This document shows, in pieces, positions 2,042-23,732 of a stretch of 38,642 nt of DNA; position 1 is the first letter of the stretch, and each line of letters begins with the position of its first letter. The position numbers and the translations under genes are program-made. Under the pieces are notes generated by a model. The model had not been told where the DNA came from. It did not search any database and saw nothing but the letters and a program-made list of their open reading frames with translations. This DNA is from Pedobacter sp. (lineage in GTDB: Bacteria; Bacteroidota; Bacteroidia; Sphingobacteriales; Sphingobacteriaceae), in contig JACMOW010000173.1 in the NCBI GenBank assembly GCA_014377775.1, forward strand, positions 1-38,642. The letters run 5' to 3'.

Positions 2042-3967
2042 ATGTTTAAAAGACACTTTAAAATTTTATTAATTATTGGTTTTTCATTTTTCTATAAAAA
2101 TGTCTGTGCACAAAAAGCGGTAACTATTGCCGATAATATGAAAGAGCATATGTTTAAGGCTGATGAAATTATTTGCCTTGAGGACCCAAGTAACCAGCTT
2201 ACCTTTGCAACGGTTTGTAGCGCTAGCTATCAGAGTAAATTTATTCCAAACATTAGTTTTTATCCTAAAAATTATAATCGTTCTTCCGCTTATTGGTATA
2301 GAATAAAAGTTTCTTTTAACAAAGAACTTAAAAGACCAGCGGTAATTGAGTTTTTTGATCAAATTACTGACTATATAGAAGCTTATCTTCCTGATGGAAA
2401 GGGCGGCTACATCAAAAGTTTTGCTGGAGCAGATTTATATTTCCCAAATCGTTTATATCAACATAAAAATTTTGAGTTTACGATAAATAGTACAAAAGTA
2501 GGAGAGCAGTTCTATTACTTTAGAATAAAATCTAAAGATCAAGTGAATGTAATTATTGTTTACAGAAGCATAGATCGTTTTATTGGGTATGCCCTTTCTG
2601 AGTACTTTACTTTTGGTTTTTTTTATGGTATGATTGTGATTTTCAGTTTTCACAATTTACTTATGTTCATCGCTGTAAAAAGGCGACAATATCTTTTTTA
2701 CATTCTATATATTTTAAGTGTTGGCTTATATGAAATGTCTTCAGATGGGATCGCATTTCAATATTTATGGCCAAACCACCCAGTTTGGAACGAGTATGCT
2801 TATGGTATAGCTTTGTTTTTTTTAAGCTCTTTTGGATTGATTTTTACGAAAGAATTACTACATGTTAAAATAAAGGCACCTGCCTTAAATAAAGCGATTA
2901 ATTTGATATTGGTTATTCGTCTACTTTTCTTTTTGGTTTGTTTATTTTATAATAATGATTGGTTTAAATATAAATTCTTAGAGTTTATACCATTGTCGCT
3001 ATGTTTTTTTACTGGTATTTATATATGGTGGAAAAAACAGTATGGGCCGGCCCGCTTTTTTGTACTGGGCTACTTTTTTCTTTACGTAGGCTTCATTATT
3101 AAGATTGTTCATATTTTGGGATGGTCTAGAACGATAATTGGAAATGTGCTGGGATATTATAGTCTAAGTTTTGGATTTTTATTAGAAATGTTGTTTTTAT
3201 CATTCGCAATTGGCGATCAGGTAAGGCTATTGAAAAGGAAAAAAGAAAAGGTTCAGAAACAAATTATAACCCAAATGCAGTTAAATGCCGAGCTCAAGGA
3301 TAAAGTAAATCTAGAATTAGAAACAAAAGTAGAAGAACGCACGAGGGAAGTACAACAAAAATCGAAAGAACTTCAGCAAAAAAACATTACAATCGAAGAT
3401 CAAAATGAAGAGTTGCTGGCCATAAATTCGTTATTAGAACAACAAGCTGAGGAAATTTCTAGAATGAATATTCTACTAGAAACGGATAATATTACTTTAA
3501 AAACAAACATCGAAAAAGTAACAAACGCACGAATAAATGCTACAGAGCTTGATTTTGAAGAATTTAGTCAAAAATATCCAGATCGTGATTCCTGCTATAA
3601 GTTTTTAGCCGATATGAAATGGGAAAATGGTTATTCCTGCGTCAAATGTAATAATTTAACCTATTGTAATGGTAAATTACCATTTAACCGCCGATGTACT
3701 AAATGTGCATATGAAGAGTCTGTATTACAACGTACCATTTTCGAAAATAGCCGAATACCTATCAATAAGGCATTTTATTTAGTATATTTAATTTACGATC
3801 ATAAAGGTGCCATTTCATCACATAAATTGTCAGAAAAGCTGGGCATTAGGCAAAGTACTTGCTGGACTTACGCTTCGAAAGTTAAAAAAATAATGGAGGA
3901 GCGTAAAAAAGATATCAAAGGTATAGGTAAAGCAGGTTGGAGTAGGTTGGTGCTAGAAAAATATTAA
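2042..3967 (+). CDS. 7TMR-DISM membrane sensor fused to IS1595-transposase-like zinc ribbon/HTH
   Basis: 641 residues from ATG 2042; an in-frame TTG at 2030 adds four residues but the ATG gives the better signal peptide (1 to about 24, ending NVCAQ). Order of parts: 7TMR-DISMED2-like beta ectodomain (about 25-175), seven hydrophobic helices (about 182-395), a charged coiled coil (about 395-500, rich in E/K/Q with ELKDKVNLELETKVEERTREV), then a zinc ribbon with C533-x2-C536, C542 and C552-x2-C555, followed by TIFENSRIPINKAFYLVYLIYD and an HTH (KLSEKLGIRQSTCWTY). That C-terminal block matches the N-terminal DNA-binding region of IS1595/ISXO2 transposases; the DDE domain is missing. Histidine kinase, GGDEF, LuxR and LytTR outputs, the usual partners of 7TMR-DISM, are absent. 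Probably a one-component membrane-bound transcription regulator of the PUL that begins 241 bp downstream. The domains are seen; the target and ligand are inferred. Confidence 0.85.
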   Translation: MFKRHFKILLIIGFSFFYKNVCAQKAVTIADNMKEHMFKADEIICLEDPSNQLTFATVCSASYQSKFIPNISFYPKNYNRSSAYWYRIKVSFNKELKRPAVIEFFDQITDYIEAYLPDGKGGYIKSFAGADLYFPNRLYQHKNFEFTINSTKVGEQFYYFRIKSKDQVNVIIVYRSIDRFIGYALSEYFTFGFFYGMIVIFSFHNLLMFIAVKRRQYLFYILYILSVGLYEMSSDGIAFQYLWPNHPVWNEYAYGIALFFLSSFGLIFTKELLHVKIKAPALNKAINLILVIRLLFFLVCLFYNNDWFKYKFLEFIPLSLCFFTGIYIWWKKQYGPARFFVLGYFFLYVGFIIKIVHILGWSRTIIGNVLGYYSLSFGFLLEMLFLSFAIGDQVRLLKRKKEKVQKQIITQMQLNAELKDKVNLELETKVEERTREVQQKSKELQQKNITIEDQNEELLAINSLLEQQAEEISRMNILLETDNITLKTNIEKVTNARINATELDFEEFSQKYPDRDSCYKFLADMKWENGYSCVKCNNLTYCNGKLPFNRRCTKCAYEESVLQRTIFENSRIPINKAFYLVYLIYDHKGAISSHKLSEKLGIRQSTCWTYASKVKKIMEERKKDIKGIGKAGWSRLVLEKY

Positions 3968-3986
3968 AAAAATTCTTGCTTTTTTT

Positions 3987-4154
3987 ATTGCGAATAAAGC
4001 GTATCAATACAAAATTTTATGATTTTATTAATTGTCACAATTACAGTTAGTTATCAATTATTTGTATTGCGGATTAAGTGCGTCAAATTTATTGTAACTA
4101 ATTAAATATCAGTTATTTACATGTGATTTTATTTGTAAATCTAATTTGTATTGC
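3987..4154 (+). repeat. repeated motif between sensor gene and susC1
   Basis: Two 21-nt direct repeats that agree at 16 positions lie at 3987-4007 and 4066-4086 (ATTGCG-n-AT-n-AAG ... TCAA). ATTGC recurs at 4150-4154. The 9-mer TTTGTATTG occurs at 4061-4069 and 4146-4154 and, inverted, at 4005-4013. Copies are 79 and 84 bp apart. These could be binding sites for the upstream regulator; no protein-binding evidence exists in the sequence itself. Confidence 0.4.
4029..4043. promoter_or_regulatory. 15-bp inverted repeat, candidate operator
   Basis: TAATTGT-C-ACAATTA is a perfect 7-bp inverted repeat around a single base, in the gap upstream of susC1 and between the longer direct repeats. The symmetry suits a dimeric regulator. 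The sequence is AT-rich, so chance occurrence is possible. Confidence 0.35.
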
Positions 4155-4164
4155 ACTATATTTA
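4132..4164 (+). promoter_or_regulatory. candidate PUL promoter for susC1
   Basis: TTTG at 4132-4135 is followed after 21 bp by TATATTTA at 4157-4164, one base off the Bacteroidota -7 box TAnnTTTG. Transcription would begin near 4171, about 38 nt before the susC1 ATG. The imperfect -7 box would fit a promoter that needs an activator. Confidence 0.4.
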
Positions 4165-4208
4165 CATCACCAAATTTTTTGGAAGATTAATTAACCAAAT
4201 TAAACTGT

Positions 4209-7200
4209 ATGACTAAAATTCTACTAAGGAGAATTTTGCGGAGAATTTATGTAACACTACTCTGGTGTTTATTTCTGCAAATTAGTGCTTCAGCAACTTT
4301 TGCAAAAGGCATAACAGCATCAAACAAAGTTATAATTCATAAACTTGATTTCCGATCCGTTAAGATCAATGAATTAGGGAATGGTTTTGTTTTAGATGTT
4401 ATTGGTATTGTAAAGGATGCGAGTGGCAATCCAATACCCGGTGTTGGAGTTAAGGTTAAAGGAACTCAGAATGGTTTCGTAACCGATGGCAATGGAAAGT
4501 TTACTTTGAAAAACGTAGACAAGGATGCGATTATCGTAATTTCTAGCATTGGCTTTAAACCGCAAGAAATTGTATTAAAAGGACAAACCAATTTGGAAAT
4601 TACCTTAGAAGAAGATTTAAAAGGGCTCAATGAGATTATTGTTGTAGGCTATGGTGCACAAAAAAAATCTACTTTAACTGGAGCAGTTTCTCAAATAGGA
4701 GCAGATGACTTAATGAAATCTCCTACGCCAAACCCAACTAATAGCCTAATTGGAAGACTTCCTGGCTTATTAGCGGTTCAAACTAGCGGTCAGCCCGGTG
4801 CTGATGCTTCTACCATCAAAATACGTGGTGTGGCTACTTATGGAGCTAATGCAAACGCAATTGTTGTGGTTGATGGAATTGAAAGACCAAGTTTTGCTGA
4901 TGTAGATCCAAATGAGATCGAAACGGTTTCGATTTTAAAAGACGCATCATCAACTGCAGTTTATGGTTTAAAAGGAGCGAATGGCGTAATTGTAATTACC
5001 ACTAAAGCAGGTAAGATAGGGAAACCCAAAGTATTTTATTCTGGAAACTATGCTGCACAAACGTATACTGGTTTAGCTGTTGGGTTGCCTGCTTACGAAA
5101 ACGCATCATTGCTAAATCAATCTTATCTAAATGATAACAAAGGTGCACCTTTTACAGCTGCCGAAATTCAAAAATTTCAAGATCATTCTGATCCACTTGG
5201 TTATCCAGATGTTCAATGGTTCGATTATTTAACAAAAAGGTATTACTCACAAACGCAGCATAATATCAATATCAATGGGGGTACTAAGTTTTCGAAGTAT
5301 TTTGTTTCTGCGGGTTATGCTTTCCAAGATGGCATTTTCAAAAAATTCGAATCACCGTATGGTATTAATTCTGTTCCCAATTATAGTAGATATAATTTCC
5401 GTGCAAATGTCGATTTAACGCTAAATAAAGATTTTGTAGTAGGGATTAAATTAGGTGGTCGTTTTGCTAACCGATATCAACCCTCGGGGTTGTTATCGGG
5501 ATCGGTATTTTCTTATGATACCATTGAAGGGATGATTTCACGTATCTTGCAAGTTCCAGCCTATGCTTATGCACCTACTTTACCAGATGGAAGGATAACG
5601 GCCAATCCAAATGTAGGTACCAATATTTGGAATCCTCTGGCAGTAATTACTCGCTTTGGTACACGAAATGACGATATCAACACGATAGAGAGTACATTTA
5701 ACTTAGACTATAAATTAGGATCTTTAACTAAAGGTTTAGCATTTAAAACTATTTTCGCCTTCGATTCTTACTACAATAACGTTGAACGTAGAAATGCAAA
5801 CTGGGCTGCATATGTATACAATGCGCAAACTGGTGCCGTAACTTTATCAACCGATACACGTAACCGTAACGAGCCTTTAGGCGGAGTTCAAAATGGAGGT
5901 GTTACTACAGGAAGCACTAATATGAACATTCAATCTGGTTTTACTTACAACAGAGACTTTGGTAAACACAATTTGGATGGTTTAATTTTAGGTACACGTT
6001 CGCTGATTCGTTCAACTGGAGAAACATCCTTTACAGCTCCACCAAAAGCTGCGCAAGGTTTGGTAACCCGCTTAAGATATAATTTTGATTCTGATCGATA
6101 CATTGTTGAAGCTAGTGGAACTTATAACGGTTCTGAAAACTTTGCGCCTGGCTTAAAATATGGTTTTTTCCCAGCAGTATCAGCAGGGTGGACATTAACC
6201 AACGAGCCTTATTGGAAAAAGAATAATATTTTAAGCTATTTTAAATTAAGAGGTAGTTATGGTTTAGTGGGTAATGATAACGTTTCTAATAATCGTTTTT
6301 TATTCCTTACAAGTTATTCTGGCAATACTGCCGCCCCATTTGGAAACCCATTATCGATTACCAATTATCCAACCTTGTTTATTGGTGATAATGCATTGGG
6401 TAATGGCCTGGTAACCTGGGAAACAGGAGTTAAAAGCAATATCGGTTTTGAATCTCGTTTTTTAAAGGATAGATTAAAATTAAATATCGATATTTTTGAA
6501 GAAGATCGTAAAGATATTTTAACCCCATCCTTAAGTGGTTCAGCACTTTTTGGCCATAGCTATCCATTCTTTAACAAAGGCGAAGTCTACAATAAAGGTT
6601 ACGAAATTGAGATGGATTATCAGGGCCAGATTGGTCAGGTTTTAATTGGTTTAAATACTCAATTCTCTTATGCAAAAAATACCATCATTGAAAATGATGA
6701 ACCAGATGGTACGCCAAATTACTTAGCTAAAAAAGGTAAAAGTGTGGGTCAATTTATTGGTTATGTAAACGATGGTTTCTACAAAGATGCAGCCGATATC
6801 GCATCATCCGTTAAACAACAAGGTTTTAATCCAATACCTGGTGATTTGAAATTTAAGGATTTAGATGGCGATGGTTTGATAACAACATTAGATCAAACTT
6901 CAATTGGACACACGAATACGCCAGAATACATTTACAGTTTTAGTCCTCGATTTGCATACAAAGGCTTTAGTATGTCTGTATTATTTCAAGGTGCTGCACA
7001 TATAAGCTCCAATGTAATTTTAAGCGAGCAAAATAATGGTCAGCAAATGTATCCTCATATGCTTAACGCATGGACTCCTACTAATGCTGCTACGGCAACA
7101 TGGCCAGCATTGCACTCAAGAGGAACCGCTTCATTAAATTATGCGTTAAACGACTTTACCCTTCAAAATGGTGCTTATCTGAAAATAAGAAATGTGGAGA

Positions 7201-7409
7201 TGTCTTATACTTTACCAAAAGAATGGGTAGCTAAGCTAAAATTGAATAATATAAGAGTGTTTTTGAATGGAACAAATCTGTATACTTGGACTAAATTTAA
7301 GATGTATCTAGATCCAGAAAATCTGAACGTTGTTAATCCCGCGTTTCCAATCCAAGCACTTTATCCAACTTCAAGAGTTTATAATGTTGGTTTAACAGTT
7401 AATTTTTAA
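4209..7409 (+). CDS. SusC/RagA-type TonB-dependent outer-membrane transporter (first pair)
   Basis: 1066 residues. After an N-terminal hydrophobic export segment (about 12-33) comes a carboxypeptidase-regulatory-like domain (about 64-133, GIVKDASGNPIPGVGVKVKG), the SusC signature EIIVVGYGAQKKSTLTGAV (142-160), a plug domain ending SILKDASSTAVYGLKGANGV, and a long beta-barrel finishing in VGLTVNF with a terminal phenylalanine. No STN domain precedes it and no FecI/FecR pair is nearby, so control by an anti-sigma cascade is unlikely. Imports oligosaccharides across the outer membrane with the SusD lid encoded immediately downstream (its ATG directly follows this stop). First gene of the PUL; the substrate is probably a glucuronate-containing glycan, judged from the neighbouring enzymes. 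Confidence 0.96.
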   Translation: MTKILLRRILRRIYVTLLWCLFLQISASATFAKGITASNKVIIHKLDFRSVKINELGNGFVLDVIGIVKDASGNPIPGVGVKVKGTQNGFVTDGNGKFTLKNVDKDAIIVISSIGFKPQEIVLKGQTNLEITLEEDLKGLNEIIVVGYGAQKKSTLTGAVSQIGADDLMKSPTPNPTNSLIGRLPGLLAVQTSGQPGADASTIKIRGVATYGANANAIVVVDGIERPSFADVDPNEIETVSILKDASSTAVYGLKGANGVIVITTKAGKIGKPKVFYSGNYAAQTYTGLAVGLPAYENASLLNQSYLNDNKGAPFTAAEIQKFQDHSDPLGYPDVQWFDYLTKRYYSQTQHNININGGTKFSKYFVSAGYAFQDGIFKKFESPYGINSVPNYSRYNFRANVDLTLNKDFVVGIKLGGRFANRYQPSGLLSGSVFSYDTIEGMISRILQVPAYAYAPTLPDGRITANPNVGTNIWNPLAVITRFGTRNDDINTIESTFNLDYKLGSLTKGLAFKTIFAFDSYYNNVERRNANWAAYVYNAQTGAVTLSTDTRNRNEPLGGVQNGGVTTGSTNMNIQSGFTYNRDFGKHNLDGLILGTRSLIRSTGETSFTAPPKAAQGLVTRLRYNFDSDRYIVEASGTYNGSENFAPGLKYGFFPAVSAGWTLTNEPYWKKNNILSYFKLRGSYGLVGNDNVSNNRFLFLTSYSGNTAAPFGNPLSITNYPTLFIGDNALGNGLVTWETGVKSNIGFESRFLKDRLKLNIDIFEEDRKDILTPSLSGSALFGHSYPFFNKGEVYNKGYEIEMDYQGQIGQVLIGLNTQFSYAKNTIIENDEPDGTPNYLAKKGKSVGQFIGYVNDGFYKDAADIASSVKQQGFNPIPGDLKFKDLDGDGLITTLDQTSIGHTNTPEYIYSFSPRFAYKGFSMSVLFQGAAHISSNVILSEQNNGQQMYPHMLNAWTPTNAATATWPALHSRGTASLNYALNDFTLQNGAYLKIRNVEMSYTLPKEWVAKLKLNNIRVFLNGTNLYTWTKFKMYLDPENLNVVNPAFPIQALYPTSRVYNVGLTVNF

Positions 7410-9134
7410 ATGATGAGAAGAAATTATAAAATATATACAGCAGTTGTTTTATTAACGCTCTGTTTCGTTTCTTGTAAAAAGGACTTCTTGGAAAGAACGC
7501 CGGGGGTGGCGTTAACTGAAGACGAAATTTTTGCAGATCCTGCGCAAGCGGCTAGATTTGCCGATAATGCCTATAATTATACCATTACAAAATATGTACG
7601 TTTCAATGATCACCGTGGCACAGTATCTCAGGCTTCTGACGAAGCTGTTTCGGGGAATTCGGAAGGTACAGTAACCTCATTAAACCGTGGCTTGTACCAT
7701 GAGCATGCTACACAAGCAAGTTTGAACGATATTGGTGATGTATACAGAAGAATGTATGCAGGTATAGCCATCACTAATAAAATGCTATCCAAAATTGCCA
7801 TCGTTCCACCTGCTCCAACTGCTACTGTCCCAATTTTTGACCCAAAACGTGTAGAAGGAGAAATGAGATTTCTTCGTGCTTTATCTTATTTCGAGTTAAC
7901 GAAGAGGTTTGGTGGTGTTCCATTGGTAGATAAAGTGTATGAGGTAAATGATGATATTAATCTTCCTCGTAAAACTTTTGCAGAAATTACGGCATTTATT
8001 TTAAAAGATATAGAAATAGCGGTTACCAAATTGGGAACCGACGCGGATTATGGAGTGGCCAATTATGGTCGACCAACAATAGGTGCAGCGCAGGCCTTAA
8101 AAGCACGTGTATTGTTATATGCAGCTAGTCCATTAAATAATCCGACAGGGGATAAAGCAAAATGGAAAGAAGCCGCAGATGCTGCATTAGCTTTGATGGA
8201 TGGTAGATATACTTTGCAAACTACTTATGGTGATATTTTAAATGTTCCCAACTCTCCAGAGTACATCATGATCAGAATTAAAGGAAATACACCGTTGGCT
8301 GGCGAAATGATGCAAGATTTCTCCATGTCTCCAGGCTCTGGCGGTGCACAAGGACAAATGAATCCTACGCAAAACCACGTAGATATGTACGAAATGGCAA
8401 ATGGATTACCAATCACTAATCCTGCATCAGGCTATGATCCTCAAAAACCATATGTAGGCAGAGAACCTCGTTTTTACAATAACATTATTTATAACGATTT
8501 ACCTTGGCAAGGTGGTAAAATAGAAATGTGGTCTACTTTGCAAGGTACAGCTACTGTATATGGTAAGGATTGGAATCCGGGTAACATTACTTATACGGCA
8601 ACCCGATATTACTGTAAAAAATATTGGCCAGAAGTGTATAGAACAGTGGGTGGAAGTACCACTTTGCTTAACTATGTTTACTTCCGCTATGGCGAAATAT
8701 TATTAAATTATGCAGAAACGCAAAACGAATTCTTAGGTACACCAGATGCGAGTGTTTATAATGCCTTAGTATTACTTCGTGCTAGAGCAGGAATTGCAAA
8801 AGGTACAGGAACCTATGGTTATGGGCTAAAGGATAACATGACAGCTTCCGAGATGCGTGAAGTGATTAGACACGAACGTGCTATTGAATTATCTTTCGAA
8901 GATCACCGTTGGTACGATATTATGCGCTGGAAAATCGGTTCTTCAACCATTGCAGTACCAATGATGGGTATGGATGTTTTCAAAAAGACAGATGGATCAT
9001 TTACCTACACACCAATTGTATTGGGTACAGGTTTCCAAAAAACATGGGCCGAAAAACAAAACCTTTATCCCATTCCTAGAACAGAAATTTATAAAAGTAA
9101 AGGGGTACTTACGCAAAACCCAGGTTGGGAATAG
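7410..9134 (+). CDS. SusD/RagB-family surface glycan-binding lipoprotein (first pair)
   Basis: 574 residues. Signal peptide with lipobox LCFVSC, lipidated at C22, followed by KKD, as in surface-exported Bacteroidota lipoproteins. SusD hallmarks: FLERTPG near the N-terminus, the helical region GEMRFLRALSYFELTKRFGGVPLV, TIGAAQALKARVLLYAASP, and the C-terminal block IRHERAIELSFEDHRWYDIMRWKIG, ending NLYPIPRTEI..LTQNPGW. It caps the SusC1 transporter and binds the incoming glycan at the surface. The gene starts at the base after the susC1 stop, so translation is probably coupled. The next gene, susC2, follows after 41 nt. Confidence 0.96.
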   Translation: MMRRNYKIYTAVVLLTLCFVSCKKDFLERTPGVALTEDEIFADPAQAARFADNAYNYTITKYVRFNDHRGTVSQASDEAVSGNSEGTVTSLNRGLYHEHATQASLNDIGDVYRRMYAGIAITNKMLSKIAIVPPAPTATVPIFDPKRVEGEMRFLRALSYFELTKRFGGVPLVDKVYEVNDDINLPRKTFAEITAFILKDIEIAVTKLGTDADYGVANYGRPTIGAAQALKARVLLYAASPLNNPTGDKAKWKEAADAALALMDGRYTLQTTYGDILNVPNSPEYIMIRIKGNTPLAGEMMQDFSMSPGSGGAQGQMNPTQNHVDMYEMANGLPITNPASGYDPQKPYVGREPRFYNNIIYNDLPWQGGKIEMWSTLQGTATVYGKDWNPGNITYTATRYYCKKYWPEVYRTVGGSTTLLNYVYFRYGEILLNYAETQNEFLGTPDASVYNALVLLRARAGIAKGTGTYGYGLKDNMTASEMREVIRHERAIELSFEDHRWYDIMRWKIGSSTIAVPMMGMDVFKKTDGSFTYTPIVLGTGFQKTWAEKQNLYPIPRTEIYKSKGVLTQNPGWE

Positions 9135-9175: not shown

Positions 9176-12100
9176 ATGAAATTATCAAAATATATAGTAG
9201 GTCTTCTTTTTTTATGGATGGCTGTACTAAACGTTTATGGGCAAAGGCCTGATGAACAAATAACGGTAAAAGGAAAGATTATCGACCAAGATAAAAATCC
9301 ATTACCAGGGGTAACAATTTCTATTCAAGAAGATAAAAAAAATAAAACTACAAATACAGACGCTAATGGTAATTTTAGTATCGAAGCTACAACCAGTGAT
9401 GTATTGGTTTTTAAGATGATTGGTTATGGTACAATGTTTAAGCCGGCTGGCGAAATAAATGAAGGAACGTTAATACTTAAGAAAGCACTTATAAATGCCG
9501 GCGACGATGATAATGTGTACATCCCATTTGGAGTAAGAAAAAGAAGAGAGGTTACCGCAACAATAAGTACAATCACAGCTGATAATCTTCCTCAAATTCC
9601 TTCTTCTTCGTTAACCAACGTGTTTACGGGTAGGTTGGCAGGTTTAAATATTTATCCGAGTGGTTCTCAGCAACCTGGATTTGATGTTTCTAGTTTCTTA
9701 ATTAGAGGCCGTTCATCTTATAACAGCAATCAAGATCCATTGATTTTGGTAGACGGAATAGAGCGTGATTTTAAATCGATGGATTTGGGCGAAATTGAAA
9801 GCGTAAGTATTTTAAAAGATGCGGCAACTTTAGCGTGGTATGGAATGTATGCCGCAAATGGTGTGGTATATGTAAAAACTAAACGTGGAAGTGCTACCTC
9901 AACAAAAGTAACTTTTGATGCACAAGCTGGTTTACAAGCGCCATTAAACATAGCAACACCACTCGATTCTTATAGTTATGCTTCTTTATATAATGAGGCA
10001 TCAATAAACAGCGGTGGTACTGCGATTTATGGTGCTGGAGCTTTGCAGGCCTATCAGGATGGATCAGACCCTATTAAATATCCAAGCAACAATTTTGTGA
10101 AAGATTTTACCAAAAGCGTTGCGCCAACTCAGCGTTATGTGGCTTCGGTAACTGGAGGAAATGCTTTTTTAAGGTATTATACATTACTAAGTGCCTACCA
10201 GCAAGGCGGCTTTTACAAAGGTGGTTATAACGAAACGTATGATGCCAATACAGATTTTAGCAGATATAATCTACGTACAAATCTAGATTTACACGTAAAT
10301 AAAAATCTAGATGTTTCTTTAGATATTGGTGGTAGAATTACCAATTTACGCATTCCTAATCAGGGAACCACTGCATTTTTAAACGCTGTTTATAGTACAC
10401 CTGCCAATGCATTTCCCATTTTAAATCCGAATGGATCTTACGGCGGTACTTCTATTTTTAATGCAAGTAATCCACGTGCCATGCTCGAAGCAAGAGGGGC
10501 AAGTACGGATTTGATCCGTAATATGATTGCCACCATTAGTGCGCGTCAAAAAATGGATGGAATTTTAAAAGGATTGTCGGCAGAAATATATTATGCATAT
10601 GATATTGCGGGTGCTTACCGTTCAGGTTTTTCTCAATCATATGCCACGCAAGAATTACTTCCAACGGGATTATATGCCACTTATGGCACAGCTTCAAAAG
10701 TTGATTATCAAGCTAACGCTTTCTCGGGTAACCTCAGAAAAGGCGAGTTTTGGGGTGGTTTAGATTACGATAGGACATTTGGGAAGCATGATATTAAATT
10801 TAGTACCAGAACATCCAGACAGAATTATTCTTCTTTTGGGAACCTTGATGTTAGACGTGAAGGAATTTCTAACCGTTTATCTTATGGTTACAATCAAAAA
10901 TACTTTATTGATTTAATAGGTGCCTATTCAGGTTCTGAGAATTTTATGCCAGGACGCAGATTTGGATTTTTCCCGGCAGTTTCTGCGGGTTGGATTATCT
11001 CTGATGAGGACTTTATGAAAAGTTCAAGCTCGTTTCTTGATTTCTTGAAAATTAGAGCTTCTTATGGTATAGTAGGCAATGATGCCATTACCTTGCCAAG
11101 AAGATTTGCCTTTAATGACTTTTTTCAAAGAAGTACAACAGGTTATACGTTCGGAACTGGTTTTACTGGCGTAAATGGGAGTGCACAAATTTCTCTAGCT
11201 AACCCGTTTTTAACTTGGGAGAAAGCTTATAAAACAAGCGCTGGTTTTGATGCTAAATTATTTAAACAATCTCTTTCTATCAGTGCTGATTATTTTTATG
11301 AAGACAGGAAAGATTTAACTACTGGATCATTACTGCCTAATGTTTTGGGTCAAACCCTAGTGGTTGTTAACGAAGGTGAAGCTTCATATAAAGGTTTTGA
11401 AGCCGCTATTAATTACAATAAAAAAATTGGTACTGTAGATGTAAATGTTTTTGGAAACTATACCTATCAGGTAAGTAAAATATTAGCCATCAACGAGGCG
11501 GCTAATCTCCCAGCTTATCAAAAATCATTAGGGCATCCTATCACAAGCGTAATTTCTACTGCGGCAACTGCAAATAATGGAGCGTCATACACGAGTAATA
11601 TGTATATTTCTAATGGTATTTTCCAGTCACAAACTGAAATCGATGCTGCGCCGAAACAATTATTAGCAAAAGATGTAAAACCAGGTGACATTAAATATGT
11701 AGATCAAAATGGTGATGGTATCATCAACGGGCTTGATGTGGTGAGAACAGATTTCAATTTTGTGCCAAAATCAGTTTATGGCTTTGGGGCTTCTATAGCA
11801 ATTAAAGGATTTGATCTTAATTTTTTACTTCAAGGTACGATGGGCAGTTCAATTACCATTCAACAAATTGTTAATGCCGGTAATACAAACAATGGTTTCT
11901 TAAACCAATACAGTGTTGATAGATGGACGACAAGCAATACCAATGCGCCATATCCGAGATTACTGTTAGCAGATCGTGGTAACAATACCGTGGCTTCCGA
12001 TTTTTGGATCCGCTCTGGCGACTATTTACGCTTAAAAAATATAGAATTAGGCTACTCATTACCAACCGCCTTTGTTAAAAAACTTAAACTTTCTCAGTTC

Positions 12101-12244
12101 AGGTTTTATGTTGGCGGCTTAAATCTATTCACATTTGATAAACTAGGAAACTTGGATCTTGATCCAGAACTCCCAGAATCAGGTTATAATTCATCCTATC
12201 CTTACATGAAAATTTATTCGTTCGGTATCAATTTGAAATTTTAA
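9176..12244 (+). CDS. SusC/RagA-type TonB-dependent transporter, divergent (second pair)
   Basis: 1022 residues. Signal peptide about 1-23 (ending NVYGQ), carboxypeptidase-regulatory-like domain about 29-104 (VKGKIIDQDKNPLPGVTISI), then a plug domain and a barrel ending FGINLKF. It is a clear SusC homologue but departs from the usual signatures: the VVGYG motif is replaced by YIPFGVRKRREVTATI, and the normally conserved ATAIYGSRGANGV region reads AATLAWYGMYAANGVVYV. Such divergent second SusC proteins often sit beside a classical one in environmental Bacteroidota. It probably handles a different oligosaccharide of the same polysaccharide. The partner susD2 begins 5 nt after its stop. Confidence 0.95.
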   Translation: MKLSKYIVGLLFLWMAVLNVYGQRPDEQITVKGKIIDQDKNPLPGVTISIQEDKKNKTTNTDANGNFSIEATTSDVLVFKMIGYGTMFKPAGEINEGTLILKKALINAGDDDNVYIPFGVRKRREVTATISTITADNLPQIPSSSLTNVFTGRLAGLNIYPSGSQQPGFDVSSFLIRGRSSYNSNQDPLILVDGIERDFKSMDLGEIESVSILKDAATLAWYGMYAANGVVYVKTKRGSATSTKVTFDAQAGLQAPLNIATPLDSYSYASLYNEASINSGGTAIYGAGALQAYQDGSDPIKYPSNNFVKDFTKSVAPTQRYVASVTGGNAFLRYYTLLSAYQQGGFYKGGYNETYDANTDFSRYNLRTNLDLHVNKNLDVSLDIGGRITNLRIPNQGTTAFLNAVYSTPANAFPILNPNGSYGGTSIFNASNPRAMLEARGASTDLIRNMIATISARQKMDGILKGLSAEIYYAYDIAGAYRSGFSQSYATQELLPTGLYATYGTASKVDYQANAFSGNLRKGEFWGGLDYDRTFGKHDIKFSTRTSRQNYSSFGNLDVRREGISNRLSYGYNQKYFIDLIGAYSGSENFMPGRRFGFFPAVSAGWIISDEDFMKSSSSFLDFLKIRASYGIVGNDAITLPRRFAFNDFFQRSTTGYTFGTGFTGVNGSAQISLANPFLTWEKAYKTSAGFDAKLFKQSLSISADYFYEDRKDLTTGSLLPNVLGQTLVVVNEGEASYKGFEAAINYNKKIGTVDVNVFGNYTYQVSKILAINEAANLPAYQKSLGHPITSVISTAATANNGASYTSNMYISNGIFQSQTEIDAAPKQLLAKDVKPGDIKYVDQNGDGIINGLDVVRTDFNFVPKSVYGFGASIAIKGFDLNFLLQGTMGSSITIQQIVNAGNTNNGFLNQYSVDRWTTSNTNAPYPRLLLADRGNNTVASDFWIRSGDYLRLKNIELGYSLPTAFVKKLKLSQFRFYVGGLNLFTFDKLGNLDLDPELPESGYNSSYPYMKIYSFGINLKF

Positions 12245-12249
12245 TTATT

Positions 12250-13998
12250 ATGAAGATGAAAAAAAATATTTGTTACTTATTTACGGCTGTAATGCTAATC
12301 GTTACAGGCTGTGAAAAAGATAGCTTTCTTCAAGACGGTAAGTTTAGTGGAACAGATAATATTACTGAAGATCAGCTTTGGGCAAACCCTGATTATGCTC
12401 GATTATTTTTAAACAATGTATACGCATCACTTAGTGATCGATATAACTTAGACGATGGCGCTTTATTGGCGTCAGGTTCTGACGAAGCGGTGAATTCTAA
12501 TTTAAACTCCTCCATCACTACGTTAAATAATGGTACTTGGAGCCCAGTAAAAACATTTGATGATGTTTATGCCAGTATGTATAGCGGCATTAGAAAAGCC
12601 AATATGTTTTTGGAGAAAGCAGATGGAAGCGCAATTATTCCTTTAGATGAGTTACTTCCTGCAAACGTTGCAGCCAATCAAACCTATGATTCACAAATTC
12701 AACGCTTACGTGGTCAAGCTTTCTTTTTAAGAGCATTTTTCGAATTTGAATTGCTCAAACGTTATGGTAGTTTTATCATCGTAACTAAAACATTATCTGT
12801 TACCGAAAACTTAGATCTACCTAGAAATTCTTTCGATCAGTGCGTACTTCAAATTTCGGCTGATTGTGAAGAAGCGATTACTAGATTACCTTTATCACCA
12901 ACAGAGTGGAATACAACTAACCGTGGTAGAGCTACAGGTACTGCGGCAATGGCACTTAAAGCAAGATTATTATTGTACGCAGCAAGTCCACAATATAACA
13001 CAAGTGGCGATCCGGCAAAATGGCAAGCAGCAGCTGATGCAGCTAAAAGATTAATGGATACTGGTAAACATGCCTTACACAACTCTTATCCAAATATTTG
13101 GTTATGGAACGTCAGCGCGTTTAATATAGAAACCATTTTTGCAACTAGTACCTTAAATACAGTTACAATTGAGCAAAATAATGCGCCAATTAGTTACGAT
13201 GCTGCAAACGGTCGTACAAATCCTACGCAAGAGTTTGTAGACGCCTTTGAAATGAAAGCAAGTGGGAAACCAATCTTAGAGGCAGCATCTGGATATAATG
13301 AAGCAAACCCATACACTGGTCGTGACCCTCGATTGGGCTTTACTGTTTTATTTAACACGGCATCAGTACAACCACTGTTGCCTGCAAACAGCTTTAAAAG
13401 TAAACCAGTTGAAACTTTTGTAGGCGGTAAGGATGGCTTAGGCTTAAATGTGAATGCAACTAAAACGGGTTATTATATGCGTAAATATTTAAGCGAAAGT
13501 GCAGCATGGGCCGGAACAATAACCAATATTCGTAGGCCATGGATCTTTTTTAGGTATGCAGAAGTTTTATTAAACTATGCCGAAGCATTAAATGAAGCAC
13601 AAGGACCAGTTGCATTATCAGAAATTTTAAGAACAGTTAATTTAGTTAGATCCAGAACAGGTGTAGCCATGCCGGCATTGCAAACTACCGATCCATCTGG
13701 TATCGCTTATGTTGCAGCAACAAAAGAAGAATTGCGTAAACGTATTCGTAATGAGCGCAGAGTAGAATTGTGTTTTGAAGAACATCGTTTTTATGATGTT
13801 CGCCGTTGGAAAGAAGGTGAAACTATCTTCAATGCTCCAGTTACGGGAATGAGAATTACACCAACTTCTGCAACTACTTTTACTTATACAAGATTTAATG
13901 CAGAGAATAGGACTTTTACAGCAAAAAATTACCTTTATCCAATTTCACAAAATGAATTGAATAGGGCACCAGCACTTAAACAAAATGCTGGCTACTAA
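12250..13998 (+). CDS. SusD/RagB-family surface glycan-binding lipoprotein (second pair)
   Basis: 582 residues. Lipobox IVTGC with lipidation at C21 followed by EKD. SusD features: LRGQAFFLRAFFEFELLKRYGSFII, AAMALKARLLLYAASPQYN, ILRTVNLVRSRTGVAMP and IRNERRVELCFEEHRFYDVRRWKEG, ending NYLYPISQNELNRAPALKQNAGY. Lid partner of the preceding divergent SusC. A second in-frame ATG lies two codons downstream; either start leaves the signal peptide intact. The beta-glucuronidase gene follows after 12 nt, so binding proteins and enzymes are in one operon. Confidence 0.95.
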   Translation: MKMKKNICYLFTAVMLIVTGCEKDSFLQDGKFSGTDNITEDQLWANPDYARLFLNNVYASLSDRYNLDDGALLASGSDEAVNSNLNSSITTLNNGTWSPVKTFDDVYASMYSGIRKANMFLEKADGSAIIPLDELLPANVAANQTYDSQIQRLRGQAFFLRAFFEFELLKRYGSFIIVTKTLSVTENLDLPRNSFDQCVLQISADCEEAITRLPLSPTEWNTTNRGRATGTAAMALKARLLLYAASPQYNTSGDPAKWQAAADAAKRLMDTGKHALHNSYPNIWLWNVSAFNIETIFATSTLNTVTIEQNNAPISYDAANGRTNPTQEFVDAFEMKASGKPILEAASGYNEANPYTGRDPRLGFTVLFNTASVQPLLPANSFKSKPVETFVGGKDGLGLNVNATKTGYYMRKYLSESAAWAGTITNIRRPWIFFRYAEVLLNYAEALNEAQGPVALSEILRTVNLVRSRTGVAMPALQTTDPSGIAYVAATKEELRKRIRNERRVELCFEEHRFYDVRRWKEGETIFNAPVTGMRITPTSATTFTYTRFNAENRTFTAKNYLYPISQNELNRAPALKQNAGY

Positions 13999-14010
13999 TA
14001 AAACTTAACT

Positions 14011-15843
14011 ATGTTCAACTTAAGAAATAGCTTACTTACCATTTGCTGGTTACTTTTTTCTGTAACCTGTTACAGCCAAGTTAGCACGCTACAAAATATT
14101 CAATCGCGTAAAACTTTAAGTCTAAACGGCAAATGGAACTATATCGTTGATCCTTATGAAAATGGATATTATGACTACAGGCACGATCCTTTCGATCAAT
14201 CAAAAAGTGGAAGTGGTGGTTTTTATGATGATAAAGTTCAAAAAGACAAGACCGAACTAATTGAATATAATTTCGACCTTTCTCCTCAAATGAATGTGCC
14301 AGGCGATTGGAATTCACAATCAGAAAAACTTGAATTGTATGAAGGTACAGTTTGGTTAAGGAGAAAATTTAATGCCGAACCCCTAAAAGACAAACGGTAC
14401 TTTATTTATTTTGGAGCGGTTAATTACGAAGCTCATGTTTATTTTAACGGTAAGAAACTGGGCGTCCACAAAGGGGGCTTTACACCTTTTCAGTTTGAAG
14501 TAACGGATAAAATAAAAGCTGGTGAGAATTCGCTAGTGGTTAAGGCCGACAATACCCGTAAGCCTGATGAAATACCAACGGTAAATACAGATTGGTGGAA
14601 CTATGGTGGAATTACCAGAGATGTTTTTTTGGCTGAAATGCCTGTACACTTTATGAACGATTATAAACTACAACTTGCAAAAGGAAGTACGAGCTTGCTT
14701 AATTTTTCGGTGCAGTTGGCTGATGCAACGGCTGGACAAAATATTATTCTTTCAATTCCTGAACTGAAACTCGAAAAAACATATACTACAGATACAGAGG
14801 GTAAAGTTAATCAGCAATTAACCATTAATAAATTGAGTTTATGGTCGCCTGAAAACCCAAAACTTTACGCCGTAAACATCAAGTCGAATGGAGAAAATAT
14901 TCAAGATAAAATTGGTTTTAGAACCATTGCGGTAAAAGGCAATAATATTTTATTAAATGGGAAGTCTGTTTTTTTAAGAGGGATTTCTATTCACGATGAA
15001 AACCCATTATTGGCCGGTAGGTTACGATCTGAAGGCGATATGCGCATGATGTTACAGTGGGCTAAAGAAATGAACTGTAATTATGTGCGTTTAGCACATT
15101 ATCCACACAATGAGGAAATGGTTAGGTTGGCTGATGAGATGGGTATATTGGTTTGGGCAGAAGTGCCAGTATATTGGACTATTTCTTGGACAAACCCAGT
15201 AACTTATGCCAATGCGAAGCAGCAACTTACAGATTTAATTGTGCGCGATAAAAACCGTGCAAGCGTAATTGTATGGTCGGTTGGTAACGAAACTCCATTA
15301 AGTGAGCCTCGCCATCTGTTTATGGGTAATTTAGTAGATGTTGCCCGTACATTAGACGATACACGCTTGGTTGCTGCGGCACTTGAAGTGCATAGAGAAG
15401 GAAACACTATAATTTTAAACGATCCTTTGGGAGAAAAGATCGACCTCGTAAGTTTTAATGAATATGCAGGTTGGTATTGGGGCGGTACGCCGAGTGAAAT
15501 TACTCGATATTCTTTTAATATTAAATACAATAAGCCTGTGGTAGTTACCGAATTTGGTGGTGATGCTTTAGGTGGTTTTCATGCCGATGCAAATACACGT
15601 TGGAGCGAAGAGTATCAAGAGGCTCTATACAAGAATCAAATCACCTTATTGAGTAAAATTGATGCATTAAGAGGTATGACCCCATGGATCCTAACTGATT
15701 TTAGATCGCCAAGAAGACAGCATCCAGTATACCAAAATTTTTGGAACCGTAAAGGGCTGATTTCAGAAACTGGTAAAAGGAAATTAGCATTTTTTGTGCT
15801 TAAAGATTTTTATAATCAAATGCAAATTAAATATAAATATTAA
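14011..15843 (+). CDS. GH2 beta-glucuronidase, exported
   Basis: 610 residues with a signal peptide about 1-22 (ending VTCYSQ). Domain order is that of GH2: sugar-binding jelly roll (about 30-210, VNYEAHVYFNGKKLGVHKGGFTPF), immunoglobulin-like domain, then a TIM barrel. The acid/base is E427 in VGNETP and the nucleophile E514 in VVTEFGG. N579-R-K581-G near the C-terminus matches the N-x-K motif that holds the glucuronate carboxylate in beta-glucuronidases, and its distance from the nucleophile (65) is close to that in E. coli UidA (62, from memory). This argues for uronate rather than galactoside specificity. Position in the operon, 12 nt after susD2, fits release of terminal beta-linked glucuronic acid in the periplasm. 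Confidence 0.9.
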   Translation: MFNLRNSLLTICWLLFSVTCYSQVSTLQNIQSRKTLSLNGKWNYIVDPYENGYYDYRHDPFDQSKSGSGGFYDDKVQKDKTELIEYNFDLSPQMNVPGDWNSQSEKLELYEGTVWLRRKFNAEPLKDKRYFIYFGAVNYEAHVYFNGKKLGVHKGGFTPFQFEVTDKIKAGENSLVVKADNTRKPDEIPTVNTDWWNYGGITRDVFLAEMPVHFMNDYKLQLAKGSTSLLNFSVQLADATAGQNIILSIPELKLEKTYTTDTEGKVNQQLTINKLSLWSPENPKLYAVNIKSNGENIQDKIGFRTIAVKGNNILLNGKSVFLRGISIHDENPLLAGRLRSEGDMRMMLQWAKEMNCNYVRLAHYPHNEEMVRLADEMGILVWAEVPVYWTISWTNPVTYANAKQQLTDLIVRDKNRASVIVWSVGNETPLSEPRHLFMGNLVDVARTLDDTRLVAAALEVHREGNTIILNDPLGEKIDLVSFNEYAGWYWGGTPSEITRYSFNIKYNKPVVVTEFGGDALGGFHADANTRWSEEYQEALYKNQITLLSKIDALRGMTPWILTDFRSPRRQHPVYQNFWNRKGLISETGKRKLAFFVLKDFYNQMQIKYKY

Positions 15844-15872
15844 TCATCCTATTTTTATGTTTTAAATATAAA

Positions 15873-17402
15873 ATGAAAGAAAAACAATTTTTATTCAAAT
15901 TAAAAGCAATATCATCAAGCTTAGTCCTAGTGTTGTGTTTTACAACTTCCTTTAGTCAAACCAAATGGGAGTCTGAATATGTTAAAATTCAAAAAAATGG
16001 AAAACTACAATATATTCCCGATGAAATGGGTAACATCATACCTGATTTTAGCAACGTTGGTTATCATCAAAATGCAAAAGCGATACCGAAAGTAAAAGTA
16101 GTGACTACACTTTCGGCAACTGGCGATAATGATCAACAAAAAATACAACAAGCGATTGACGATTTAGCCCAAAAACCGGCAGATCAGAATGGTATCCGTG
16201 GTGCGATTTTATTAAAAAGGGGAATCTATAAAATATCAACAAGCCTAAAAATATCAACTAGCGGAATTGTGCTACGTGGAGAGGGCAACGAGACTAAACT
16301 AATTGCTACTGGTAGCAGTCAACGGAAAATGATTATTGCCTCTGGAACAGGAAAGATAGTTGAAACGCCTCATACAAGAACTAAAATTAGCACTGATTAC
16401 GTTCCGGTGGGCGCAAAGAGCTTTCAGCTTACTTCTGTTGATGGATTAAAAGTAGGCGACCAAATTATAGTATTTAGAGCAGGAACAGACAATTGGATCA
16501 AAGATTTGAAAATGGACCAGATTGCGCTTGCAGAAGGTACGGTACAATGGAAGGGAGTTGATTACAATTTCGAATTTGAAAGGATCATTACAGCAATTGA
16601 AGGCAATACCCTATTTTTAGACAATCCGATTGTATTGGCCATGGAAACGAAATACGGTGGTGCTGAGATTTATAAATACACTTTTGAAAGTAGAATTACG
16701 GAGGTTGGGATAGAAGATATGTTGCTTGAATCGGAATATGCGAGCGATACCGACGAAGAACATGGATGGGATGCTATTTCTTTCAATAAGATAGCCAATA
16801 GTTGGATAAGTGGGGTAACTAGTAAATATTTTGGCTATTCGTGTGTAAATCTTGGTAATGAAAGTAAGCAAATTACCGTTAAAGACAGCAAATGTCTTGC
16901 ACCAAAATCACAGATTATTGGTGGAAGAAGGTATTCATTCAATAACGACGGACAACTCAATCTTTTTATCAATTGCTTTGCATCAGAAGGAAGACACGAT
17001 TATGTAACCGGGGCAAAAGTACGCGGACCAAATGTATTTTTTAACTGCATATCAGTAAATGCGAAGTCTGATATTGGTCCACACCACCGTATGGCTGTAG
17101 GTACGCTTTTCGATAACGTAACTACAGATGGAGAAATAAATATTCAAGATAGAGGAAATTGGGGCACAGGACATGGTTGGTCTGGCATAAATCAGATCCT
17201 ATGGAATTGCACAGCAACAAAAGCCGCAGTTCAAAATCCTTATGTGGGTGGTAAAAATTATGCCATTGGGTTTACCACTCAAAAATACGAAGGTCGCCTT
17301 AAGGGAAGGCCCGATGGTATTTGGGAAGGGCAAAATAAGAAGGGCTTAAATCCATCTTCATTATATTTAAAACAGGTAAAGGAAAAATTAAAAGGAATAT
17401 GA
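15873..17402 (+). CDS. exported right-handed beta-helix protein, polysaccharide lyase candidate
   Basis: 509 residues. Signal peptide about 1-29 (ending TTSFSQ). Residues about 75-130 resemble the start of Pectate_lyase_3 proteins (DNDQQKIQQAIDDLA ... AILLKRGIYKIS), and the remainder shows the short strand repeats of a parallel beta-helix (WISGVTSKYFGYSCVNLGN, NVFFNCISVNAKSDIGPHHR, EINIQDRGNWGTGHGWSG, ILWNCTATKAAV). R and H/K residues in the GPHHR and RGNWGTGHGW segments could be catalytic, but I cannot assign them to a named PL family. The GH88 gene overlaps its stop by 4 nt, and GH88 enzymes act on the unsaturated uronate ends that lyases make; that makes this the best lyase in the locus. 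Function is inferred from fold and context. Confidence 0.72.
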   Translation: MKEKQFLFKLKAISSSLVLVLCFTTSFSQTKWESEYVKIQKNGKLQYIPDEMGNIIPDFSNVGYHQNAKAIPKVKVVTTLSATGDNDQQKIQQAIDDLAQKPADQNGIRGAILLKRGIYKISTSLKISTSGIVLRGEGNETKLIATGSSQRKMIIASGTGKIVETPHTRTKISTDYVPVGAKSFQLTSVDGLKVGDQIIVFRAGTDNWIKDLKMDQIALAEGTVQWKGVDYNFEFERIITAIEGNTLFLDNPIVLAMETKYGGAEIYKYTFESRITEVGIEDMLLESEYASDTDEEHGWDAISFNKIANSWISGVTSKYFGYSCVNLGNESKQITVKDSKCLAPKSQIIGGRRYSFNNDGQLNLFINCFASEGRHDYVTGAKVRGPNVFFNCISVNAKSDIGPHHRMAVGTLFDNVTTDGEINIQDRGNWGTGHGWSGINQILWNCTATKAAVQNPYVGGKNYAIGFTTQKYEGRLKGRPDGIWEGQNKKGLNPSSLYLKQVKEKLKGI

Positions 17403-18580
17403 ATCTGAAAATTAATTTACTAGCATTACTCGTAATGTCATGTTTTTACCCAATGGCACAACAAGTTAATGTGGCAAAAGCTTTCGAATTGGCTGCAAAG
17501 CAAACCCATGTACTTATCCATAATGTAGATTCAGCAAGAAAAGTAAGACCTACACTCGTTTCGCCTCGCACGGTAGAGAAGGGCGTTTTTAAAATGGTAA
17601 ATTCTAAAGATTGGACAAGTGGTTTTTTCCCCGCAGAGTTATGGTATTTCTACCAATATACAAAAGATAAAAAATGGCTTACCTTGGCTAAAAAGTACAC
17701 CGAAGATATTAAAAAGGAGCAGTTTAATAAAGGAACTCATGATTTGGGCTTTATGATCTATTGCCCTTTTGGGAATGGTTATAGATTAACAAAAGATACC
17801 GCTTACAAAGGCGTAATTATACAGGCTGCAAAATCACTTTCTACTCGATTTAATGCCAAATCGGGTGTAATTAAATCGTGGGATCACAATGGCGATAAGT
17901 GGAAATTTCCAGTAATTATCGATAACATGATGAATTTGGAGTTGTTGTTTGAAGCTTCAAAATTTACCAACGACCAATCTTTCGCTAAAATCGCAATTAG
18001 CCATGCAAACACTACGATGAGAAATCACTTCAGACCCGATTTTAGTTCATGGCATGTAATCGATTACGACACTTTAAGTGGAAATGTGCGTAATAAGCTA
18101 ACTGCACAAGGCTATGCGAACGAATCTGCGTGGGCACGTGGACAGGCTTGGGGTTTATACGGCTATACCTTATGTTATCGCTATACCAAAAATTTGGCTT
18201 ATTTAGCACAAGCTGATGGCATTGCAGGTTTTATATTAAGCAATAAAATTACCCCAGCTGATGGTATTCCTTATTGGGATTACAACGACCCAGCTATTCC
18301 AAACACATCTAGAGATGCTTCAGCTGCGGCAATTATAGCTTCTTCTCTATACGAACTAGCAAAATATAGTAAGCAAGGTGCTGAATATAAAGCAGCTGCT
18401 GATAAAATTTTAGTTTCTTTAAGCACGTTGTATATCAGCAAGCCAGGCACAAACTACGGGTTTCTCTTAGAACATAGCACGGGTCATCACCCTGCTAAAT
18501 CTGAAATTGATGTACCAATCAATTATGCAGATTATTACTATTTAGAGGCACTTTTAAGACATCAGAATTTTAAAAAATAG
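17399..18580 (+). CDS. GH88 unsaturated glucuronyl hydrolase, exported
   Basis: 393 residues. Signal peptide about 1-21 (ending YPMAQ), then an alpha6/alpha6 barrel of the GH88 type. The two key aspartates are visible: D115 in GTHDLGF and D175 in VIIDNMMNLELL, 60 apart, matching the pair (Asp88/Asp149) of the Bacillus UGL enzyme as I recall it. SAWARGQAWGLYGYT and SRDASAAAIIASSLYEL are further family hallmarks. It removes 4-deoxy-L-threo-hex-4-enopyranuronate from the non-reducing end of lyase products by hydration of the double bond, giving a ketone sugar acid. The ATG overlaps the previous TGA (ATGA), indicating translational coupling with the beta-helix protein. GH105 is an alternative, but D115 context and length favour GH88. 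Confidence 0.93.
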   Translation: MNLKINLLALLVMSCFYPMAQQVNVAKAFELAAKQTHVLIHNVDSARKVRPTLVSPRTVEKGVFKMVNSKDWTSGFFPAELWYFYQYTKDKKWLTLAKKYTEDIKKEQFNKGTHDLGFMIYCPFGNGYRLTKDTAYKGVIIQAAKSLSTRFNAKSGVIKSWDHNGDKWKFPVIIDNMMNLELLFEASKFTNDQSFAKIAISHANTTMRNHFRPDFSSWHVIDYDTLSGNVRNKLTAQGYANESAWARGQAWGLYGYTLCYRYTKNLAYLAQADGIAGFILSNKITPADGIPYWDYNDPAIPNTSRDASAAAIIASSLYELAKYSKQGAEYKAAADKILVSLSTLYISKPGTNYGFLLEHSTGHHPAKSEIDVPINYADYYYLEALLRHQNFKK

Positions 18581-18586
18581 ACACCT

Positions 18587-20008: not shown

Positions 20009-20155
20009 GATCATGCCTAAATTTATCTTATAACGGAAGAAACAATGAGGGTTATGCACCCAATGGAATGCCCTCGAGGCCCGGGGATGATAAATTATGT
20101 TGTCTGATGACAAAGTAGCCTCGGGATGATAAGAAATACACTATAAATAAGAAAT
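20009..20155. repeat. intergenic gap with degenerate GTCATCCC-type repeat
   Basis: This gap interrupts an otherwise tight operon. GGGATGATAA occurs at 20084-20093 and again at 20123-20132, each preceded by a CTCG-containing stretch; read on the minus strand these are TTATCATCCC units like the intergenic GTCATCCCGAG repeats common in Bacteroidota. A small hairpin TTGTC-TGAT-GACAA lies at 20100-20113. No promoter is evident before the GH10 gene. Confidence 0.4.
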
Positions 20156-21226: not shown

Positions 21227-21239
21227 GGTTCATAGGTTG

Positions 21240-21395
21240 TGGGGTTCGATGCATAATCAATTAGTTAAAAATAACCTTTGCGCTTTTTGTGTGCTTTGCG
21301 GTTAAAAAGTATTGAACCATTAAGGGGTTTAGGGTAAAACACAAAAGACTTATACTTTCTAAGCTGCCTTAAACTGTAAAAACAAAAACCTTAAC
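21240..21395. repeat. CTTTGCG-type intergenic repeat before GH3
   Basis: The gap between the GH10 and GH3 genes carries CCTTTGCGC..TGTGTGCTTTGCGGTTAAAA at about 21270-21307, with two CTTTGCG units, then AACCATTAAGGGG and later ACACAAAAG, which pair imperfectly with the first half. AAACCTTAACGGGTTAA follows. It looks like a decaying intergenic palindromic element of the kind scattered through Bacteroidota genomes. No clear promoter or terminator seen. Confidence 0.45.
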
Positions 21396-21412
21396 GGGTT
21401 AAAAAACAATTT

Positions 21413-23632: not shown

Positions 23633-23644
23633 CGTTTACGTAAC

Positions 23645-23652
23645 TATTTTTG
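23645..23652 (+). promoter_or_regulatory. candidate -7 box before uxuA
   Basis: TATTTTTG matches TAnnTTTG exactly, in the 100-nt gap between GH3 and uxuA, leaving a leader of about 75 nt. No good -33 element is visible, so confidence is low. Confidence 0.3.
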
Positions 23653-23732
23653 TGTGAATTTTATTTTTCAGCTATCTTAGGCGATGCTTATTTAAGCACT
23701 CTGTTTTGATACTAAATACTTGATACTGAAAA

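Follow-up and report, generated by a model that had tools for sequence, protein, structure and literature searches.

The contig JACMOW010000173.1 of a Pedobacter sp. assembly (GCA_014377775.1), analysed here over its full length of 38,642 nucleotides and called the window below, carries a gene (2042..3967, forward strand, as are all features described here) for a 7TMR-DISM membrane receptor with a C-terminal DNA-binding head akin to that of IS1595 transposases. The gene is followed by a polysaccharide utilization locus (PUL) that starts with susC. We consider it probable that the encoded protein is a one-component transcription factor, predicted from the sequence to bind two direct repeats in front of susC and likely to activate the PUL. 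The sequences establish the order of the domains, the kinship of the head with transposases and the absence of a catalytic domain; they also show that the fusion has one origin in the tree, that the regulator is linked to susC in most of the loci sampled, and that a conserved motif points to the target. A preliminary description of the window had proposed such a membrane-bound one-component regulator, and the sequence data support this proposal through the IS1595 match and the susC linkage; the conserved oriented motif provides independent support.

The open reading frame (ORF) runs from an ATG at 2042 (or a TTG at 2030, a possible alternative start) to the stop at 3967 and encodes 641 aa counted from the ATG; its assignment is based on the ORF itself, Pfam, NCBIfam and comparison with a transposase. 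The periplasmic DISMED2 domain, the predicted sensor (2174..2557, residues 45-172; PF07696, 7TMR-DISMED2, 81.9 bits against a cut-off of 22, E 5e-23), is followed by the seven-helix DISM membrane domain (2600..3220, residues 187-393; PF07695, 7TMR-DISM_7TM, 140.6 bits against a cut-off of 29, E 8e-41), the helices of which are present in the structure model; both domains pass the Pfam cut-offs. A coiled-coil/signalling-helix linker follows (3227..3478, approximately residues 396-479). Residues 374-479 were modelled as one long helix, a predicted coiled coil whose end falls into a stretch of low model confidence (472-501), and the V-ERT-E motif of the linker can be recognized by eye in a sister protein (L002) as well. 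The head modelled alone is confident (pLDDT 88.5, pTM 0.81); the model of the whole protein is less so (pLDDT 78.9, pTM 0.53) and poor in the stretch 472-501, which joins the coil to the head. In a comparison of six segments among 76 relatives, the helix-turn-helix (HTH) of the head is the most conserved one (72%) and the sensor the least (45.5%; short tail, 48%), as would be expected if the operator is shared and the ligands vary. In a sister DISM gene of the same genome (L003), the same DISMED2 and 7TM front ends in HisKA, HATPase and receiver domains. In the regulator, none of its Pfam matches up to E 1 is a histidine kinase, receiver or AraC domain, and no sigma-70 region or FecR domain was found by Pfam. 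With a DNA-binding head in the position of the kinase, the simplest reading is therefore a one-component membrane-bound regulator.

The head consists of a CxxC...CxxC zinc ribbon of IS1595 type (3584..3709, residues 515-556, with cysteines 533, 536, 552 and 555) and an IS1595-type HTH (3746..3919, residues 569-626), the latter assigned by NCBIfam, the transposase match and the head model. The NCBIfam model transpos_IS1595 (NF033547) aligns its positions 1-61 of 215 with residues 569-626 (30.3 bits, cut-off 75, E 3.6e-7). Furthermore, a full IS1595 transposase of 302 aa possessing both the head and the DDE domain (L150; 161.9 bits with NF033547) shares 43% identity over its residues 9-131 with the product of window positions 3533-3901 (E 1.1e-33). 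The zinc ribbon of the window protein itself (Pfam Zn_ribbon_IS1595, residues 516-557, 18.8 bits, E 0.0016) is under the curated cut-off of 25.4; it was assigned because relatives and the matching transposase carry it. Among proteins with the same domain order, 28 of 31 close relatives match the zinc-ribbon model at E<=0.01 and three of five distant ones pass its Pfam cut-off, and an alignment retains the four cysteines in 78 of 79 rows, the remaining row being truncated with a gap there. The frame stops 15 residues past the IS1595 match and thus lacks the DDE domain; PF12762 (DDE_Tnp_IS1595) has no match in the window's genome, of which the assembly is 88% complete. The architecture given in the preliminary description, a 7TMR-DISM receptor joined through a coiled coil to an IS1595-like zinc ribbon and HTH without DDE domain, is thus borne out by the Pfam domains, the predicted helix and the match to L150. 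The profile check proposed for its C-terminus confirmed the IS1595 kinship (NF033547, L150) but left the zinc ribbon of this one protein below the Pfam threshold.

A search with a head profile across the phylum gave matches in 34 of 247 genomes. Among the matches listed, seven are in long frames: five were scanned and are 7TMR-DISM proteins, one is the window protein, and one (G035) matched the full-length profile; the remaining ones, with frames of 108-368 aa, are transposases and short pieces. As the scanned long frames are 7TMR-DISM proteins, no other type of sensor bearing an IS1595 head was seen among the matches listed for this sample. For a phylogenetic analysis, 149 heads were reduced to 104 at 90% identity and classified by frame length alone (52 in frames of >450 aa, 43 of 250-450 aa, nine shorter). 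All 52 fusion heads, including that of the window, fall on one side of a single branch (97/84; 99% of 200 bootstrap trees). On this tree the fusion of receptor and head arose once, i.e. by one capture. The small number of columns and the long branches limit the rest of the tree, including the choice of the nearest transposase clade.

Stand-alone zinc-ribbon/HTH proteins of 137-203 aa, with frames lacking DDE, were also found; four of them (L136, L137, L139, L141), from four genomes, form one tree clade. These and the similar L120, L123 and L127 are possibly independent domestications, or broken transposases. One genome (G457; L119, L155-L169) has 16 head-profile matches in diverged frames of transposase length (~306-339 aa), and the one that was scanned is an IS1595 transposase according to NCBIfam.

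Homologues of the regulator account for 1815 of 7998 scored database proteins, a part of which was checked for the head. The full-length profile matches in 222 of 301 genomes of the family, many of these matches being weak and due to other DISM proteins; at least 146 strong full-length matches were found in 107 of the 301 genomes. Named genomes yielded 238 matching stretches, of which the 80 best ones, corresponding to 79 loci, served for the analysis of gene neighbourhoods; close relatives thus dominate this sample. According to the gene calls made in this analysis, which considered genes of at least 140 aa, susC directly follows the regulator in 43 of the 79 loci; four others have a divergent susC upstream of the regulator, nine have susC or susD elsewhere within 8 kb, and of two more one ends with the contig and one gave no regulator frame. 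The window's genome contains 22 susC genes above the TIGR04056 cut-off, or ~1% of all genes if their total is estimated from its 3.17 Mb. The linkage is thus far above chance, which favours the reading of the preliminary description. Six further loci were followed for ~1.4-1.5 kb downstream each, and four lead into susC (L114 from the same genus; L117, L118 and L122 from another family); the downstream DNA of L115 and L116 has no susC by profile. Tandem pairs of regulators were seen in L023, L043, L102 and L106 (L102 and L106 are apparently the same places as L043 and L023). Note that databases list several homologues as ParA (chromosome partitioning protein) or as LadS-like kinase; their domains give no support for these names.

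The DNA between regulator and target contains a directional motif, TGnGnnTnAAGCGTATCA, often in two direct repeats (starts 77-79 or 86-94 bp apart) that precede a Bacteroidetes-like promoter. The box closer to the target is followed by a second block, similar to ATCAGTTATTTATG. The octamer GCGTATYA is found 68 times in the 69,150 bases downstream of the regulators of 78 loci, where its frequency in the remaining 1.23 Mb of these loci would predict 3.6 copies, and 65 of the 68 copies point to the target. At least one downstream copy is present in 48 of the 78 loci (52 if the 700 bp upstream, on the other strand, are added). A matrix built from 15 distinct sites of 15 of the 16 Pedobacter-type loci was tried on the 62 other loci. 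At score 10, 33 of these loci gave 62 matches (7.2 expected), and at score 12, 29 gave 50 (3.45 expected); all 48 downstream matches are on the plus strand, and 12 of the 14 upstream ones are on the minus strand, the side of a divergent target. The motif is also present where the target is not susC, e.g. in the GH30/GH16 cluster of L063. Over the 301 genomes the paired pattern occurs at 134 places, 40 of them within 2.5 kb of one of the at least 146 regulators listed, and 37 of these 40 are downstream and co-oriented.

In the window, box A1 (TTGCGAATAAAGCGTATCAA, 3988..4007), a predicted operator half located 21 bp past the regulator stop, has an exact 18-base core that is the sole exact match to the motif in the genome. 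A degenerate second copy, box A2 (4067..4086, three mismatches in the 18-base core), follows 79 bp after A1, a spacing as in the orthologues. Each box is followed by a conserved block: B1 (4040..4056), the weaker one, recognized by eye, and B2 (AATATCAGTTATTTACATG, 4105..4123). A susC promoter is predicted at 4132..4165 (TTTG at 4132-4135, 21 bp, TATATTTAC at 4157-4165) on the basis of the promoter consensus, and susC starts at 4209. Rfam has no match in 3850-4300. The predicted targets are the first SusC/SusD pair (4209..9134; Pfam, TIGR04056) and the remaining PUL (9176..24896; Pfam), with a second SusC/SusD pair, GH2, GH88-like, GH10, GH3 and UxuA proteins, among others. Since the window is the whole contig, the survey for other regulators extends to the contig ends: the Pfam scan, which covered 23 further ORFs with a minimum length of 100 aa (three antisense overlapping ORFs were outside it), revealed no hybrid two-component system (HTCS), extracytoplasmic function (ECF) sigma/FecR or AraC gene, as the preliminary description had stated. 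ORFs 18587-20008 (473 aa, inside the PUL) and 33652-34038 (128 aa) have no Pfam match.

DISM receptors sense a small molecule with their periplasmic domain, and a coil relays the signal. In the proposed mechanism, a periplasmic glycan fragment would be sensed by DISMED2/7TM, and a coiled coil, similar in kind to the one that leads to the histidine kinase in a sister protein of the same genome, would carry the signal onwards. Two heads would thereby come into the register required for contact with the two repeats, directly upstream of the -33 element, and RNA polymerase would be recruited next. The ligand may be a xylan or glucuronoxylan fragment, because the gene set comprises GH10, GH2, GH88-like, GH3 and UxuA. 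Activation rather than repression is suggested solely by the position of the boxes upstream of the predicted promoter.

Several observations weigh against this interpretation. No susC is present within 8 kb in 21 of the 79 loci; ten neighbours from seven of these loci comprise GH30, two GH16, a sulfatase, GH3, GH5, chondroitinase B, DUF5916/CBM9, a cytochrome c-like protein and a major facilitator superfamily transporter, and a GH18 gene comes after the two L043 regulators. The exact octamer is absent from the scanned flanks of 26 of the 78 loci, 29 of the 62 test loci have no matrix match at score 10, and 94 of the 134 paired-pattern places are away from the listed regulators, with ~57 matches for the reversed control pattern. 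If two mismatches are allowed, the motif is found at 24 places in the window's genome (seven for a control), and box A2 alone is no better than chance (five matches, 3.46 expected). Furthermore, with close relatives dominating the sampled loci, shared descent could keep part of the intergenic sequence alike. Of the distant members, L115, L117, L118 and L122 are without the motif, and L116 has one partial copy. Of the loci that gave no match in these scans, some have variants, and others may use other sites; that distant members keep susC and mostly not the motif would be expected if head and operator change together. A common block, AGCAA(A/T)CGATTTCGGA, was noticed by eye between regulator and susC in L117, L118 and L122 and is a candidate operator of another subfamily.

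The same protein and operator may also work with the opposite sign, as a repressor released by the ligand, or the head may need proteolytic release from the membrane for its activity. Transposase heads bind DNA without being activators, and we assign this alternative a small but appreciable probability. However, the predicted -33 element is not covered by the boxes, which precede it, and no conserved protease partner gene was apparent beside the regulator in the neighbourhoods viewed, although no search was aimed at one. Considerably less probable is a receptor acting on another protein, RNA or a chromosome partner, with the repeats bound by an unlinked PUL regulator. Binding by the head is indeed a prediction, and the test loci without a matrix match would fit such a scheme, but the motif tracks the regulator family in position and strand across genera, also beside non-susC targets (L063), and neither another regulator among the window ORFs scanned nor an Rfam match in the intergenic region was found. 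A global regulator is disfavoured by the single exact copy of the motif in the whole genome. The transposon origin of the head is what could suggest a chance or decaying fusion of receptor and transposon without function. This we regard as very unlikely indeed, since it is contradicted by conservation: the full-length matches are widespread in the family and of one origin, and cysteines and HTH are conserved at 52-60% overall identity.

The regulators named for PULs in the sections of PMC10766802 and PMC3878776 concerned with them are HTCS, ECF/anti-sigma and SusR-like proteins, and direct repeats with long spacers are predicted there for SusR and HTCS as well (PMC3878776). The SusR-like regulators of Bacteroides, as outlined in PMC3878776, likewise combine a membrane sensor with a cytoplasmic DNA-binding domain (here, an order obtained from Pfam and the model, with presumed topology and binding) and a direct-repeat operator with long spacers (here, predicted and spaced as given above, with a degenerate second copy in the window). 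In contrast, the sensor here is DISMED2/7TM and the head an IS1595 zinc ribbon with HTH. HTCS, as described in parts of PMC3878776 and PMC10766802, are also membrane-anchored PUL regulators with direct-repeat operators, but the regulator studied here has no kinase, receiver or AraC domain; unlike ECF sigma/anti-sigma systems, neither it nor the 23 other ORFs scanned contain a sigma-70 region or FecR. It shares the HTH and, judging from its relatives and the 43% identity to L150, probably the zinc ribbon with IS1595-family transposases but has a receptor in front, no DDE domain and PUL genes adjoining, and it shares DISMED2 and 7TM with 7TMR-DISM histidine kinases such as L003, which have a kinase and receiver output instead of a DNA-binding head. 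The Fig. 5 legend of PMC8092284 places the ChiS-family DNA-binding domain C-terminally of various sensory domains, 7TMR-DISM among them; by its description there, this domain is a different one, the proteins are proteobacterial, and the portion concerned reports no link to PULs. The novelty claimed in the preliminary description thus has to be narrowed: a 7TMR-DISM protein with a DNA-binding tail has a precedent, and the new part is the transposase-derived output on a PUL-linked receptor. No description of a 7TMR-DISM/IS1595-transposase fusion was found in the literature searched, which misses most subscription papers and preprints. By analogy, the regulator's mode of action is likely that of SusR, with a different sensor and with a head taken over from a transposase. 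As the same geometry occurs with another head, long-spaced repeats may be a property of membrane-bound dimers.

In one IS clade near the regulators (L150, L176, L183), the left end TAGAATAAGGCG resembles by eye AATAAAGCGTAT of the operator. Eleven transposon-end strings were compared with mono-nucleotide shuffles, resulting in p 0.042 for L150, 0.106 for L183 and 0.46-0.87 for the other nine; an earlier scan of 16 strings gave p 0.0025 for one L150 string, hand-lengthened by four T, and 0.067 for its partner end. The matrices were built from sites picked for the exact octamer and hence penalise transposon ends. A derivation of the operator from transposon ends is not claimed.

Taken further, the findings point, with slightly better than even odds, to a widespread additional class of PUL regulators beside SusR, HTCS and ECF/anti-sigma. 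This class would go back to one capture of an IS1595 head by a 7TM receptor, would have spread to Sphingobacteriaceae, Chitinophagaceae, Spirosomataceae and further families, and would use direct-repeat operators with the long spacing also predicted for membrane regulators unrelated to it, the tethering itself setting the operator geometry. If so, a regulator open to testing, together with its predicted binding site, would become available for numerous sugar loci of Pedobacter, Mucilaginibacter, Chitinophaga and Dyadobacter without an HTCS, SusR or sigma factor, as seen in the window for the locus studied here, and their regulons would be readable from sequence. The route from transposase to transcription factor is best known from vertebrates; this would be a clear bacterial case in which the DNA-binding part of a transposase was captured as a transcription factor. 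It would also raise the general question of whether membrane-bound regulators need long-spaced direct-repeat operators.
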